DNA from: a virus
Strand: one strand, 5' to 3'
Length of the DNA: 42,284 nucleotides
IMG/VR virus record: IMGVR_UViG_3300038423_000056
Span: 1 to 42,284 of that record
Part shown: in pieces, positions 22,285 through 34,569 of the stretch
How positions within the stretch are numbered: the stretch's first letter is position 1
How the letters are laid out: every line of letters begins with the position of its first letter
Position numbers and translations under genes: made by a program
Notes under the pieces: generated by a model
The model's database searches: none
Seen by the model: only the letters and a program-made list of their open reading frames with translations
What the model was told of the DNA's origin: nothing

Positions 22285-22650
22285 TCAAAACGGAACGTCA
22301 TCGTCAACAACCTCTGATGCACTTGGTTTTTCTTCCGGCGGTTCTCCCCCGATCTTCCAAACCTGTATCTCTGTTGAGGTTCGCTTGTTGCCGTCTTTAT
22401 CGTCCCATTGACGATATGTAATCTTGCCCTCTACTTCAAGTTTATTACCTTTTGCATATTTCGCCAACTCCGCGGCAACATCTCCAAAAGCTACAAGCCG
22501 ATGCCAGGAAGCCGGACGCTTAACCCATTCCTCATTTTTCTTATAATCATTTGAAGTTGCAAGGTTTACATTTACAACCATCTTGCCATCAGGTAAATAC
22601 TTAACATCTGGATCCGCGCCTAACCGTCCAATTAACTTAACCTGGTTCAT
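22285..22650 (-). CDS. ssb: Single-stranded DNA-binding protein
   Basis: A 121-aa SSB with the OB-fold pattern (N-terminal NQVKLIGRLGADPDVKYL, central WHRLVAFGDVAAELAKYAKG, then VEGKITYRQWDDKDG). The acidic C-terminal tail ends in DDDVPF, the tip that recruits replication partners. The gene follows the primase-helicase and a small overlapping gene, so it is part of the replication cassette. Confidence 0.93.
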   Translation of the reverse strand: MNQVKLIGRLGADPDVKYLPDGKMVVNVNLATSNDYKKNEEWVKRPASWHRLVAFGDVAAELAKYAKGNKLEVEGKITYRQWDDKDGNKRTSTEIQVWKIGGEPPEEKPSASEVVDDDVPF

Positions 22651-22859
22651 TCACCTTCCCTCCATTCAGTTTCTATCTCTATTGTATAATTATCTTTGGA
22701 TCCGTCAAAGTAATTCATAACCAATGACGGAATTACGTCTTGTTTGCGGGCAATCTCTTTACACATAAGCAACCATGCCTGTCTTTTAGTATAAGCATAG
22801 CGGTAAAGAACATAAGATTCAAGGTTAAAAACAAACTTACCTCTCCAATGTTGTTTCAT
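22647..22859 (-). CDS. Small protein overlapping the primase-helicase end, 70 aa
   Basis: The start is chosen at ATG 22859, because an upstream extension would only read the primase gene in another frame. The protein is aromatic and basic at the N-terminus (KQHWRGKFVFNLESYVLYRY) with a helix and an acidic end. It overlaps the primase-helicase 3' end by 23 bp and the SSB start by 4 bp. The function is unknown; the position suggests a replication accessory factor. Confidence 0.55.
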   Translation of the reverse strand: MKQHWRGKFVFNLESYVLYRYAYTKRQAWLLMCKEIARKQDVIPSLVMNYFDGSKDNYTIEIETEWREGE

Positions 22860-24504
22860 CTTCAAGGGTTTCGCCTTGTTTTTTCCATTGACCAACGGGC
22901 GTAAACCTGCATCCGGCGGCAAGCTTGAATTGGATAAACTTCCTATCTGGGTTATCATTTTTATCCCTCCATATCTTTGCCTTTTCTATAGTTAATATTC
23001 CCTTTCTTTGAATAGTCAAATATACTCTTGACCTATTCATGGTTCCGGCTCCACCAAAACCAAACTGTTTATTTGGATCCTTCTGTATAGCAATAACAAC
23101 AATCCCACTTTGTAGTTTATCGGCTATTAGTCGGATCCTCATAGGCATCTTATATGCTTCGGCATCGCTCCCCTCGTCTAAATAATCAATTATGTTTATA
23201 CCATCAGGATTAATCTTGTCGGGGTAATTATCGGTTCTAAAAGTAAATTTAATTGCCCGCCATGCACTATCACCGACATGAAATTCATCCATTCTAATTT
23301 TAAGCTCAGACCCCTCCTTCATTTCAGAGCTCATATAATTTACGGGCATTAGGTCTTTATTTTTTAATGCAAAGTTCATACAATAAGCCGTCTTCCCTGC
23401 ATTAGATTCCCCAGCTACTACAATTACATTGCCCTTGTGAATCTTCACATATTCATGCACATTTAGCGGAAATTTTATATCTAACGGCGTTGTGTCTGCG
23501 TTCTCCCAGTCAATCGGTTCTTCGTCTTGATCTACTGTTCGCCATTGACCGCTTTTACTGCCATGCTTTACTATTAATCCCTCCGTAACAGCACGCTTCA
23601 AACAGATAGATTGGTTCTTCAACTCTTCTCTTGTAGACAGTTGTAGACGTTTTGCCTGTTCTGTAGACAAAAACACGCCGCTTGTAGACACAATGTCATC
23701 CCTGATGTCTTGCATTAGGTTCCGTTCTTTAGATTTTGCCCTCTTCCATGCGCTCTCGATTTTGTCTTGGATCCATTTCTCATCATGCTCTCCCCATGAT
23801 TCAGTTATAGAGATAAGCACTTGAAAGGCATATTCTTTTGTGCATTTACCTAATGCTAAAGTATAGGCTAATCTAAATAAACTATCGTCCCTTTTGCCCA
23901 CTTCCCATATATTTTCATTGTAGACATTTGTAGACTCTGTAGACACTTGTAGACTATCGTCTTTTGTCTTGTCTACATTGCCTATATATAATGTACTTAT
24001 TATTTTAAGATAAGCCTCTGGCATGGCGAGGCTCCGTTCATGGCTCAAATCTACGATCCATTGATACGGTTTGCCCTCACCGTTCTTTGATGGGGGGGCG
24101 AGGACATAACCACCATTGCCCCGGAAATCTGTACCCTTAATTTTTCCGGCTCCGATGGTTATGTTTCTGCCCTTTGGATATTTGAAATATAGATGCTGGC
24201 CGCCCCGGGGAGTTTTAACGATCGGTGTGCTGGCATTATCAAATCCGTATTGTAGAAGGTTTTGTTGTCCTTCCTCTGTGTCTATATCTACTACAAACAG
24301 ATCCGATATTTCGCCCGTAACAATTCCAATGTTTGCATCTGGTGTTGCAGACCACCAGGAAATAATTTGTGGTCTTGTTGCCCGTTGCTTTTGGAATGAT
24401 TCCCATTTGACCATCGGTTTCTTTTGACCGGGGATTATGGGAATAACAGAAAAACCCATTTCTTCATACGTCAATGCCGCTTCAAGAAGCTTATTCTTTG
24501 CCAT
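22837..24504 (-). CDS. Bifunctional primase-polymerase (AEP) fused to a DnaB-like helicase domain
   Basis: The 555-aa product (ATG 24504, preferred over a GTG at 24525 without SD) begins with a Prim-Pol domain. Its marks are PIIPGQKKP (23-30), the catalytic VVDIDTEEG (D73, D75), TPRGGQHLYF (98-107) and FRGNGGYVLAPPS (127-139). A linker of about 180-340 follows. The C-terminal RecA-like helicase domain has Walker A GESNAGKT (365-372) and a strand IVVIAIQKD resembling the hexameric helicase core. It should prime and unwind phage DNA. Unusually, the linker-coding DNA carries eight TGTAGAC repeats and an AT-rich stretch, a candidate origin. HNH lies upstream, SSB downstream. Confidence 0.85.
   Translation of the reverse strand: MAKNKLLEAALTYEEMGFSVIPIIPGQKKPMVKWESFQKQRATRPQIISWWSATPDANIGIVTGEISDLFVVDIDTEEGQQNLLQYGFDNASTPIVKTPRGGQHLYFKYPKGRNITIGAGKIKGTDFRGNGGYVLAPPSKNGEGKPYQWIVDLSHERSLAMPEAYLKIISTLYIGNVDKTKDDSLQVSTESTNVYNENIWEVGKRDDSLFRLAYTLALGKCTKEYAFQVLISITESWGEHDEKWIQDKIESAWKRAKSKERNLMQDIRDDIVSTSGVFLSTEQAKRLQLSTREELKNQSICLKRAVTEGLIVKHGSKSGQWRTVDQDEEPIDWENADTTPLDIKFPLNVHEYVKIHKGNVIVVAGESNAGKTAYCMNFALKNKDLMPVNYMSSEMKEGSELKIRMDEFHVGDSAWRAIKFTFRTDNYPDKINPDGINIIDYLDEGSDAEAYKMPMRIRLIADKLQSGIVVIAIQKDPNKQFGFGGAGTMNRSRVYLTIQRKGILTIEKAKIWRDKNDNPDRKFIQFKLAAGCRFTPVGQWKKQGETLEDETTLER
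23632..23689. repeat. Iteron cluster 1: four TGTAGAC direct repeats
   Basis: TGTAGAC starts at 23632, 23642, 23662 and 23683, spacings 10, 20 and 21 bp, close to whole turns of the helix. The flanks extend the motif to about YTTGTAGACA. In the coding strand the copies fall in two different reading frames, so the repeat is kept at DNA level and not as a peptide repeat. Confidence 0.8.
23919..23954. repeat. Iteron cluster 2: four TGTAGAC direct repeats
   Basis: TGTAGAC starts at 23919, 23929, 23938 and 23948, spacings 10, 9 and 10 bp. A single inverted copy, GTCTACA, follows at 23971-23977. The copies occupy three codon phases, which again argues for a DNA-binding site array. All lie in the linker between primase and helicase domains. 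Confidence 0.8.
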
Positions 24505-24506
24505 AG

Positions 24507-24866
24507 CTACACACCCAACAGGCACAGCACTAAATCTAAATGTCTTGATAATTCGGGGTCATAATTATCTTCTAAAATGTTTTCCAGCATCCGCCTACGG
24601 CTTTGAAGAAAGGCATCAAGAATAATTTTATCAACCAAACCGCCGAGCGTTTTAAAATCGTTTTTATCGTGGCATGGTTCGCATAAGGTCAATAAATATT
24701 TATCCTCATATTCCCACGGCTCAATTTTGGGGAAGTAGCACAAGTGATGAAGCACCAATGATTTGTCTGGCTCCTTACACAGCCTACAAGTCCAATTATC
24801 ACGGTTAAAAATTTCAAGTCTACGTTTTTGCCATTTTGGATCCTTGAGTTTGTCAGCATACTTCAT
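24507..24866 (-). CDS. HNH endonuclease
   Basis: A 119-aa HNH nuclease. It has C27-x2-C30, the HH pair at 40-41, and C62-x2-C65-H66...N69, the zinc-finger-supported HNH fold. The start is ATG 24866, with AAGGA about six bases upstream and the usual family opening (KYADKLKDPKWQKRRLEI). A terminator-like hairpin and a promoter lie upstream, so this is the first gene of the replication transcript. In many phages HNH proteins act in packaging; here the place next to primase could instead mean a role in DNA processing or a homing remnant. Confidence 0.85.
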   Translation of the reverse strand: MKYADKLKDPKWQKRRLEIFNRDNWTCRLCKEPDKSLVLHHLCYFPKIEPWEYEDKYLLTLCEPCHDKNDFKTLGGLVDKIILDAFLQSRRRMLENILEDNYDPELSRHLDLVLCLLGV

Positions 24867-25049: not shown

Positions 25050-25496
25050 TTACTCCGTCATCCTCGTAAGACGCTCAAGCACCTCGCTGAAGGTTTTGTA
25101 AAAATCAACAGTGGGTAGCCAATGAAAAAGGTTTTCACGGTAGCCGACGACGAAGGTACGCTTTTGCAGGGCAAGGGCTATGCCGTATTCAACGTGCCTA
25201 CCTCCGCGACTATGGTTTGATCGTGGCGGCTCTGTAAAGTTTATGACAATATCCGCACCCGTTACGTCTTCCCAATCGTCCTGGGCAAATTTGGCGCGAA
25301 GTTCGTTGTTTCCGATACTGTGTTCAGCTTCAATAAGTGCTTCGCCGTTATCACCTATCGGCACGCCCTCGCTTGTGATCTGATGTTTACCATCTAACCA
25401 CCGAGCCTGTACGGTATAACCCAAAGATTGAAGTATTTTACGATAAACGCAAAGTTCCTCACGCCTACTATATCGAGCCGCTAAATATACTTTCAT
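25050..25496 (-). CDS. Nucleoside 2-deoxyribosyltransferase-like protein
   Basis: A 148-aa Rossmann-like protein. It opens MKVYLAARYSRREEL, a common start of the nucleoside deoxyribosyltransferase superfamily. It contains ADIVINFTEP (about 81-90), the helix-preceding strand that usually carries the catalytic region, and GGRHVEYGIALAL (about 98-110), where the Glu is the family nucleophile. Relatives exchange bases on deoxynucleosides or cleave nucleotide glycosidic bonds. A role in nucleotide salvage or base modification is plausible. GGGGAG precedes the ATG, and the gene overlaps the preceding small frame by 29 bp. Confidence 0.65.
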   Translation of the reverse strand: MKVYLAARYSRREELCVYRKILQSLGYTVQARWLDGKHQITSEGVPIGDNGEALIEAEHSIGNNELRAKFAQDDWEDVTGADIVINFTEPPRSNHSRGGRHVEYGIALALQKRTFVVGYRENLFHWLPTVDFYKTFSEVLERLTRMTE

Positions 25497-31203: not shown

Positions 31204-31358
31204 AAACAACACGGCTCAACGTCATAGACCTTTTGATTATGCGATATCTATTAAAATTCCCGATAAAGGCGAAGACAATCGTCAAGCGGATATTCGAGGG
31301 TCAACATTTACACGGGAATCCACGGAGGAGGATTAAAAATGATATTAAAGAAAGCTGA
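31200..31358 (+). CDS. 52-aa basic protein
   Basis: The ATG 31200 overlaps the stop of the frameshifted gene, and its 3' end overlaps the RecA-like gene by 20 bp. The product is rich in Lys/Arg (LLIMRYLLKFPIKAKTIVKR). GGAAAG lies at a suitable distance. It may be a small DNA-binding protein; the region also carries the SD of the next gene. Confidence 0.4.
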   Translation: MKTTRLNVIDLLIMRYLLKFPIKAKTIVKRIFEGQHLHGNPRRRIKNDIKES

Positions 31359-32505
31359 GAGTACTATGGCATATTTTAAGGCAGGGATATTGGGGTTTCC
31401 GGGAAGTGGTAAAACCTATACGGCAACGCTTCTTGCAATCGGAATTGGTGAAGCCGTGAAGAATAAGAAGGTAGCCTATTTCGATACAGAAACCGGGAGC
31501 GACTTTCTTTTGCCGATGCTTAGGGGTAAGGGGTTTGAGAGCTTTCAGGTGAAGTCAAGGTCGTTCACGGATTTGCTTGAAACCCTTAAAGACTGTGAGA
31601 AGGAAAACATACCCATCTTGATTATAGACAGCATCACCCACGTATGGCGTGATCTGTGCGATGCCTATGATAAGAAGCTCCAAAGGCGAGGTCGCTTGCA
31701 GTTTCAAGACTGGGCAATTATCAAGGGCGAATGGAAACTCTACACAGACCTTTTTATTAATTCACGGATACACATTATCGCTTGTGGGCGTGCCGGATAC
31801 GAGTATGACTATGACTTTAATGAGGATGGTACAAAGGATTTAATCAAGACCGCTACCCGGATGAAGGTCGAAAGTGAATTTGCTTTTGAACCTTCTCTTG
31901 TGATCGAAATGGAACGCACCAGCGAGGGCAGGGAAGAATTAAAAGAACATCTTGGCAAGACAGATCGCAAAAGCAAAGAAATGAAGCAGACGCACAAACC
32001 CACAGCCGGGAGCAAGTGGATTCACCGGGCGTATGTTCTTAAAGACAGGACAGACACGCTTAATGGTGAGGTTTTTGACTACCCCGTATTTGACAATTTC
32101 TTGCCACACTTTAAGGCTCTCAATATCGGCGGGGAACAGCTCGGCGTGGATACTACCCGCACCTCAGAAGATCGTTTCAATAAAGAGGGTAAGCCACAAT
32201 GGAAAATCATTGAAGAACAGAAACAGATTGTCCTTGAAGAAATCAAAGGCGAGTATGAAAAGAACCTGCCCGGCTCTACGGATAAGGTTAAAAAAGCCCG
32301 CGTGATACTTGCGGAGAAAATGTTTGGCACAACATCATGGACAGCAACAGAGGGCAAATCTTTAGAAGACCTACGGCGAGGATTAAAGCGAATGAGGGTT
32401 ATCTTTACCGTACCAGAGAACACACCCGACAATATTGCATTGGGTAAGATAGCCGAACCACCCGACGAAGACGTGCAAGAGTCGCTGTTAGAGAAGCATA
32501 GTTAG
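31339..32505 (+). CDS. RecA-like P-loop ATPase, possibly a Sak4-type recombinase
   Basis: The 388-aa protein has Walker A GFPGSGKT (19-26), a VAYFDTETGSDF strand (45-56), Walker B ILIIDSITHVW (93-103) and a sensor-like IHIIACGRAG (144-153). This is the core of the phage RecA-like ATPase group that includes Sak4 single-strand annealing partners. Relatives work with SSB, which this phage has. The C-terminal half is Lys/Glu-rich. GGAGGAGG precedes the ATG at 31339; ATG 31366 is an alternative start. Recombination or replication restart is the likely role. Confidence 0.65.
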   Translation: MILKKAESTMAYFKAGILGFPGSGKTYTATLLAIGIGEAVKNKKVAYFDTETGSDFLLPMLRGKGFESFQVKSRSFTDLLETLKDCEKENIPILIIDSITHVWRDLCDAYDKKLQRRGRLQFQDWAIIKGEWKLYTDLFINSRIHIIACGRAGYEYDYDFNEDGTKDLIKTATRMKVESEFAFEPSLVIEMERTSEGREELKEHLGKTDRKSKEMKQTHKPTAGSKWIHRAYVLKDRTDTLNGEVFDYPVFDNFLPHFKALNIGGEQLGVDTTRTSEDRFNKEGKPQWKIIEEQKQIVLEEIKGEYEKNLPGSTDKVKKARVILAEKMFGTTSWTATEGKSLEDLRRGLKRMRVIFTVPENTPDNIALGKIAEPPDEDVQESLLEKHS

Positions 32506-33650: not shown

Positions 33651-33818
33651 ATGAAAGTCATCAACGTAACGAAAGAGTATTTCCAGACAGAGGACGAGGA
33701 GGTTTATTTCTTCGAGCCTTTGGAAAAAGAAATATCCGTTGAGGATATGCAGAAGATTATGGATGCAAACGAGAAATTAGTTAAAGAGGTAAAACATGAG
33801 TGTTATAGTAGCAATTAG
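33651..33818 (+). CDS. 55-aa acidic protein, intact paralogue of 22145-22275
   Basis: ATG 33651 follows AAGGAG. The acidic, aromatic N-terminal half (FQTEDEEVYFFEPLEKE) leads into a helix SVEDMQKIMDANEKLVKEVK that is nearly repeated in the broken gene next to SSB. The 3' end overlaps the PAPS-reductase-like gene by 23 bp. A protein-protein interaction helix is a reasonable guess. The function is unknown. Confidence 0.6.
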   Translation: MKVINVTKEYFQTEDEEVYFFEPLEKEISVEDMQKIMDANEKLVKEVKHECYSSN

Positions 33819-34569
33819 TGGCGGAAAGGCTTCGGCTTGGTGCGCAGACTGGGCATTGAAGCAGTATCCAAAAGGAGAGGTCATTTTGTATTTCAATGAT
33901 ACAAAATGGGAACATGCAGACCTATGTCGTTTCCTTGATGACCTTTCAAAACACTTTAATCACCCCATCACTTTCGATTCGGATGGAAGAAGTCCAGAGG
34001 CATTGTTTCAGGACAACAATGCCTTGGCAAATAATCGTATGCCTTTTTGCTCTCGCATCTTAAAAGCAGAACGACTGCAAAAGTTCTACAAAGATGGAGA
34101 TACGCTTGTATTTGGTATCGGTGCTGATGAGCCATATAGAGCAAACAGAATTGTCGGAGTTTATCAAACTGTTGCCGTAAAAACTGGAAAATACCCTAAG
34201 TTGAATTTTCCTCTCATCGAGGAGAACACAACAAAACAGCAGATTGACGACTTCTTAAAAGCAGCAAACATTCAAGAACCACTCCTCTACAGATTGGGAT
34301 TTCTACATAATAACTGTTCTGGGGGGTGTGTTCGTGCAGGGAAAAAACAGTGGAAACTACTTTTTGAGAAACTTCCAGAAGTCTATGCGGAACGAGAACG
34401 AGTAGAGAGGGAAATGAGAGAATATCTTGGTAAAGATATTTCATTCTTCAAAGATGAAACTCTTGAGGCGTTTCGTGGGCGGATAGAACGAGGGGAGTTG
34501 TCATCATATTATGACACGGATGATGAAAAAGAAACAGAGTGTATTGGCATTTGTTCGAGTATCGCATGA
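33796..34569 (+). CDS. PAPS-reductase/PP-loop ATPase-like protein
   Basis: A 257-aa adenine-nucleotide alpha-hydrolase-like enzyme. The N-terminal VAISGGKASAW has the SGGKxS PP-loop (8-13) that binds ATP, and the following YFNDTKWEH strand matches the family. Cys residues lie in PFCSRILKAERL and NNCSGGCVRAGKKQWK. Such phage proteins are annotated as phosphoadenosine phosphosulfate reductase-like and may act in sulfur transfer, nucleic-acid modification or sulfate metabolism. No partner genes (for example DndB/D/E) are present. The gene overlaps both neighbours. Confidence 0.75.
   Translation: MSVIVAISGGKASAWCADWALKQYPKGEVILYFNDTKWEHADLCRFLDDLSKHFNHPITFDSDGRSPEALFQDNNALANNRMPFCSRILKAERLQKFYKDGDTLVFGIGADEPYRANRIVGVYQTVAVKTGKYPKLNFPLIEENTTKQQIDDFLKAANIQEPLLYRLGFLHNNCSGGCVRAGKKQWKLLFEKLPEVYAERERVEREMREYLGKDISFFKDETLEAFRGRIERGELSSYYDTDDEKETECIGICSSIA

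Follow-up and report, generated by a model that had tools for sequence, protein, structure and literature searches.

The 42,284-base viral stretch analysed here (the window) encodes a protein that joins a Prim-Pol domain, a winged-helix (wHTH) domain and a DnaB-like helicase, and within its coding sequence lies an array of short direct repeats, TGTAGAC. Our leading interpretation, to which we give a probability of about 0.8, is that these repeats are iterons specific to their type, which the wHTH of this very protein binds through its predicted recognition helix H3, and that they form a replication origin. The sequences compared show positions and spacing that are conserved, repeats that change in concert and covary with H3, block exchange and a nearby A+T maximum; from these we infer binding, melting, helicase loading, priming and use as an origin.

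An exact search of both strands finds nine copies of TGTAGAC in the window, all within 23632–23977 and none elsewhere (Table 1). Eight direct copies form two clusters and one copy is inverted, with the coordinates and spacing that a sequence-only reading of this DNA had given; frequent occurrence elsewhere, which that reading would have taken as counter-evidence, is not seen. Whole-window shuffles contain a mean of 2.71 copies (largest 7), and none of 100 reaches nine or more. The clustering exceeds chance by far, and more strikingly than the copy number does: by arithmetic from the same shuffles, a 350-bp stretch should hold about 0.02 copies. Cumulative GC skew, put forward earlier as a check, proved uninformative as origin evidence, having no extremum at 23.8 kb in the window; near 28 kb its sign switches along with the direction of the genes.

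On the coding strand the repeat of the linker array reads GTCTACA. In coding coordinates, direct copies start at nt 572, 582, 591 and 601 (linker array) and at nt 837, 858, 878 and 888 (wHTH array), with the inverted copy at nt 549. The linker array encodes residues 191–203, in the disordered linker. The wHTH array encodes residues 279–298 of the wHTH, its last copy ending at nt 894, directly before codon 299, which specifies the first residue of H3. The sequence-only reading had spoken of a protein linker; this fits the cluster at 23919–23954 but not the other, which occupies wHTH codons.

Several copies encode similar dipeptides (LST, for example, at three places in the wHTH), as if the copies were a protein repeat of ST/TT motifs and the DNA had no role of its own. 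The copies of the window gene nevertheless use all three codon phases, as had been pointed out from the letters, and one of them is inverted. Synonymous-codon shuffles that keep the protein fixed do not reproduce the count, giving a mean of 0.54 copies and a maximum of 6 in 2,000 shuffles against the nine observed. In three homologues (L144, L159 and L185) the entire linker array runs in the opposite orientation to the wHTH array, an arrangement that a protein repeat could not produce. Codon phase, inversion and synonymous shuffles together refute this explanation, to which we leave next to no probability.

Table 1 Features of the replication gene and its surroundings in the window
Feature	Position	Strand	Basis
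Single-strand binding protein (SSB) gene, close downstream	22285–22650	−	PF00436, E 4e-27
Prim-Pol / wHTH / DnaB-like helicase gene	22837–24525	−	ORF list, translation, Pfam, PHROGs, AF2 model
DnaB/RecA-like helicase domain, residues 345–550	22876–23493	−	Weak PF03796; Walker A GESNAGKT; PDB folds
Winged-helix (wHTH) domain, residues 269–332	23530–23721	−	AF2 models; PDB fold-level matches
Predicted recognition helix H3 codons, residues 299–314	23584–23631	−	DSSP on AF2 model
wHTH iteron array (putative)	23632–23689	+	TGTAGAC at 23632, 23642, 23662, 23683; exact search
Helical domain between linker and wHTH, residues 211–268	23722–23895	−	AF2 model
Linker iteron array (putative)	23919–23954	+	TGTAGAC at 23919, 23929, 23938, 23948; exact search
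Inverted iteron copy (putative)	23971–23977	−	TGTAGAC on − strand; exact search
A+T-rich stretch, candidate DNA unwinding element	23984–24013		90% A+T
Prim-Pol domain, residues 17–160	24046–24477	−	PF09250, E 4.4e-36

The gene product is 562 residues long counted from GTG, with an in-frame ATG (residue 8) at 24504. The Prim-Pol/helicase fusion proposed from the letters is borne out. The primase of pRN1 ORF904 is among the best PDB fold matches of the Prim-Pol domain, and the helicase, weak by Pfam, is clear by structure (PDB fold matches to DnaB); PHROGs matches of the protein are primases and DnaB-like helicases. The AF2 model of the full protein (pLDDT 87, from an alignment of 34 rows that leaves out two from the annotated phage collection) has a disordered linker at residues 181–202 (pLDDT <50) and a winged helix composed of H1 (270–280), H2 (287–293), H3 (299–314) and two wing strands (318–320 and 327–330). 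A domain-only model of the wHTH also shows H3 at 299–314. In the PDB the wHTH model matches the Rpa2 winged helix, MecI/BlaI, MarR and AspA, in each case no closer than at fold level (best E 0.02). MecI and BlaI read TACA/TGTA operators; many of the iterons described below contain TACA, possibly by coincidence. The nearby SSB gene makes this a replication neighbourhood. Elsewhere in the window we noted weak or partial matches to a nucleoside deoxyribosyltransferase (25050–25496, − strand), an AAA_24 ATPase (31339–32505, + strand) and a PAPS reductase (33796–34569, + strand).

The whole protein is found at 100% identity in three viral contigs, and partially, again at 100%, in two more. The next homologue found, L128, is 54% identical and contains no TGTAGAC. 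It has eight copies of GCGTTACA instead, placed in the two corresponding regions of the gene and with gaps equal to those of GTCTACA in the window (10/9/10 and 21/20/10). Conservation of TGTAGAC in all relatives was rejected on this evidence. The sequence-only reading had looked for one motif surviving across homologues, where in fact the repeat word varies in step with the wHTH. It had also reckoned with the opposite of what we find, namely loss of the motif with the amino acids kept: relatives carry another repeat and the encoded amino acids shift with it, from ST to TT, SS or VT.

Homologues were drawn from viral contigs, genome contigs and annotated phages, the last including Methanosarcina virus MetMV (L191) and Caudoviricetes vir555 (L192). 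Repeats found de novo in each homologous gene include GTCTACA, GACCACA, GACAACA, GTCAACA, GTCGTCA, GTCCACA, GTTACA, GTGACA, TGTTAAAA, CTTACAG, CAGTTGAA and GCTTTCAA, more than 15 types in a single protein family; the word of MetMV is GACCACA. The array usually sits at the same two places, with spacings of 9, 10, 20 or 21 bp, while the word itself differs. In an unbiased test, 30 of the 56 homologous genes have a best 7-mer array that exceeds every one of 100 synonymous shuffles; the other 26 fail this strict in-gene test, and about a dozen homologues have no array even when their flanks are searched. Flanking DNA that was examined contains the repeat seldom or not at all.

The four codon-aligned sites of the wHTH part resemble one another within a gene (mean identity 0.592) more than the same sites do between genes (0.407) or than sequences shifted by at least 15 nt do (approximately 0.23–0.33). 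Copies in this part fall mostly at offsets 0, 21, 31 or 41, and 51, and the offsets of the window (0/21/41/51) recur in L128, L132, L165 and L185. Inverted copies ahead of the linker array, as in the window, are also present in L132, L140, L141, L145 and L185. Mapped on a helicase-domain tree of 39 rows, which is resolved only in part (17 of 36 inner branches open), repeat type must have changed at least 28 times.

Which part of the protein would read these words is suggested by covariation. For the 27 genes whose repeat is clear, distance in repeat correlates with distance in H3 (r 0.62; partial correlation 0.59 when helicase distance is controlled for; permutation p 2e-4). Of 467 segments, each of twelve residues with codons not overlapping the repeats, the four that score best are H3, with starts at 300–303. 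The best covarying single residues not coded by the repeats are 306, 303 and 310, on about one helix face. GTCTACA pairs in H3 with K-N-x-S plus a following residue that is aliphatic or small, GACCACA with A-x-N-M-A, GTCGTCA with x-S-K and GTTACA with A-V/I-R. For pairs below 70% helicase identity, the gene nearest in H3 matches 7.30 of 9 bases, compared with 5.85 for the gene nearest in helicase and 5.79 for a random one.

Some of this covariation could be linkage, because H3 and the wHTH array adjoin and lie in an exchanged block. Were another protein, of host or phage, to read the array, inheritance as one block would account for the covariation: H3 lies in physical linkage with the wHTH cluster, the H3-based prediction for ten genes with arrays outside the wHTH codons is weak and not significant (P 0.09), and TGTAGAC also turns up in other phages, whose replication genes are unrelated. 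We consider such a reader very improbable all the same. The covariation is uneven over the linked block, its peak falling on H3 residues spaced by about one helix face; apart from the wHTH, the exchanged block has no evident DNA-reading domain; and a fixed host factor is hard to square with a family that has more than 15 repeat types.

Exchange of the block is best seen in L138 (GACCACA) and L145 (GTCTACA). Their nucleotide identity is 80–100% across the Prim-Pol and at least 84% up to residue 132, drops to 44–67% at residues 181–330 and rises to 91–98% from residue 331, just past the wing. The block of L145 is mostly 80–96% identical to that of L141, which also uses GTCTACA, although the Prim-Pol regions of L141 and L145 are only 65% identical. 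On these identities the pair is a natural recombinant, in which one block of linker, repeats and wHTH was replaced and the sequences on either side are highly similar. The window repeats the pattern: L130 (GACCACA), closest to it on the helicase tree, shares with it about 75% of amino acids in Prim-Pol and helicase and 25% in H3. Covariation with H3 and block exchange speak for a putative type-specific binding, in which each set of repeats would be recognized by the protein that it helps to encode. The L145 gene (from about 4001) has in addition an apparent intein-like insert at the helicase Walker A motif, where GIPNAGK is followed by about 330 residues ending in VHN and then by TAFLLNFA.

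The A+T-rich stretch that had been placed at 23983–24013 is real, and no other 30 nt of the window gene are as rich in A+T as positions 23984–24013 (coding nt 513–542). In 16 of 21 full-length homologous genes with linker copies, the 30-nt A+T maximum of the gene lies upstream of the first such copy, at most 110 nt away. The placement may partly reflect the amino acids of the linker. We predict an A+T-rich unwinding element adjoining the repeats, its melting being proposed from base composition and position.

A working model can be drawn from these parts. The wHTH of the gene's own protein would bind the repeats through H3, and binding at both arrays would assemble the protein on the DNA in helical phase. 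The adjacent A+T-rich stretch would then melt upon this assembly, the DnaB-like ring of the same polypeptide would load and the Prim-Pol domain would prime. The gene would be initiator and origin in one, and autoregulation through the same sites is possible in addition. The repeats could instead serve the wHTH mainly as an autoregulatory operator, a road-block or a device for copy-number control (titration or handcuffing), with the true origin elsewhere. Self-binding within the gene would give feedback, and the binding evidence (within-gene site identity and H3 covariation) applies equally to such a role. We judge it unlikely, although less so than a foreign reader: the arrays lie roughly 550–900 nt into the gene, away from the promoter, they adjoin the gene's A+T maximum, the window has no second TGTAGAC array, and the arrays of RepA_N and lambda O, which are close parallels, act as origins (PMC5703833, PMC7466680). 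An origin read by the encoded protein itself remains our preferred interpretation.

The phages lambda, phi80 and 82 have type-specific O proteins and ori sites. The likeness to lambda ori drawn in the sequence-only reading, and with it the iteron-type origin, is supported by our comparison, with origin activity as the predicted part. In lambdoid ori (lambda, P27, 933W), iterons and an A+T-rich tract lie in the middle of gene O and are read by O itself (PMC7466680). Lambda O carries no enzyme and passes DnaB via P, whereas the phage reader described here is fused to helicase and primase, and its iterons, at 7–8 bp, are much shorter than those of lambda. In RepA_N plasmids (pSK41, pPR9), Rep boxes within the rep gene are read by the protein's own winged-helix domain, and in the natural chimera pPR9 the DNA-binding domain and origin were replaced together (about 500 bp), making it compatible with pSK41 (PMC5703833). 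RepA_N proteins lack a primase or helicase domain and recruit host DnaG, whereas both are fused in the phage protein; the RepA_N origin lies in the linker region, to which the phage gene adds an array in the codons of the DNA-binding domain (PMC5703833).

Other systems share single elements. SaPI Rep and SCCmec Cch2 are initiator helicases that read short iterons by their own DNA-binding domain and may self-load, but they have iterons sited downstream of their genes, a C-terminal reader and a helicase of the AAA+/D5-MCM type, not DnaB-like (PMC7581432). Proteins of the pRN1 ORF904 type combine Prim-Pol, helical domain, helicase and winged helix in one polypeptide, as the phage protein does (PMC4234260; PrimQH, PMC5862659). 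In pRN1 the helicase is SF3 and the winged helix C-terminal, in contrast to the C-terminal DnaB/RecA-like helicase and mid-protein wHTH of the phage, and the origin is a stem-loop after the gene, without iterons (PMC4234260). In repABC plasmids oriV lies inside the repC coding sequence and needs an A+T-rich stretch; repC has no iterons, unlike the phage gene (PMC3155836). A Pfam scan, the sole basis of the sequence comparison with RepA_N, found Prim-Pol and DnaB_C only and no match to the DNA-binding domains of lambda O or RepA_N. The protein is thus predicted to work like lambda O and RepA_N while by sequence it is neither, its descent being that of a Prim-Pol/DnaB-like fusion. In the open-licence literature we found no description of iterons in Prim-Pol/DnaB-like fusions or in reader-domain codons, and the words replication, primase, helicase and iteron are absent from the main text of the MetMV paper.

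TGTAGAC arrays are not confined to this family. A scan of viral contigs for three close copies returned at least 119 stretches; among the matches listed, 53 have copies on both strands or out of codon phase (reversed control, 6 of 120). The listed stretches include unrelated initiator loci, namely AAA_25 primase-helicases, VapE, D5_N, DUF927 with a Cch HTH, and DnaD/O-like genes. Arrays beside or inside unrelated replication genes occur in L007, L015, L025, L033, L048, L055, L057, L061, L084, L096 and others, and an array lies about 5 bp from the end of an AAA_25 gene in L007, L025, L061, L066, L084, L096, L113 and L122. A profile search with the wHTH at the TGTAGAC clusters of other phages (AAA_25, VapE, DnaD/O-like) gave no convincing match. 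One short viral contig (L117, 161–263) has thirteen TGTAGAC in perfect 8-bp tandem. Short tandem arrays of approximately 12-bp units away from an initiator gene, in L166 (1–179, GACGCTATCCCA) and L175 (5676–5943, GGCGGCGTA-like units), are probably low-complexity protein repeats.

Tentatively, and at somewhat less than even odds, we suggest a widespread class of initiators in bacterial and archaeal viruses, in which the codons of the reader form part of its own array, reader and sites form a self-sufficient cassette for origin specificity that moves by block exchange, and H3 residues 303, 306 and 310 relate to the repeat by a code. The TGTAGAC arrays beside unrelated initiators would then point to a site or code that may be shared across replicons.

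Other initiator genes are already known to contain their origins; candidate iterons in a Prim-Pol/DnaB-like fusion and in the codons of the reader domain are, within the open-licence literature searched, new. The many repeat types of this one family would offer a natural series for how a winged-helix initiator reads its origin, and the origins of many unannotated phages and archaeal viruses, Methanosarcina virus MetMV included, could be guessed from the initiator gene. Since reader and sites lie in one short DNA block, recombination can swap both and may change replication specificity in one step. The arrangement suggests why an initiator gene would house its origin: the linkage of reader and sites is kept, and a single recombination event can change specificity and escape incompatibility or titration.
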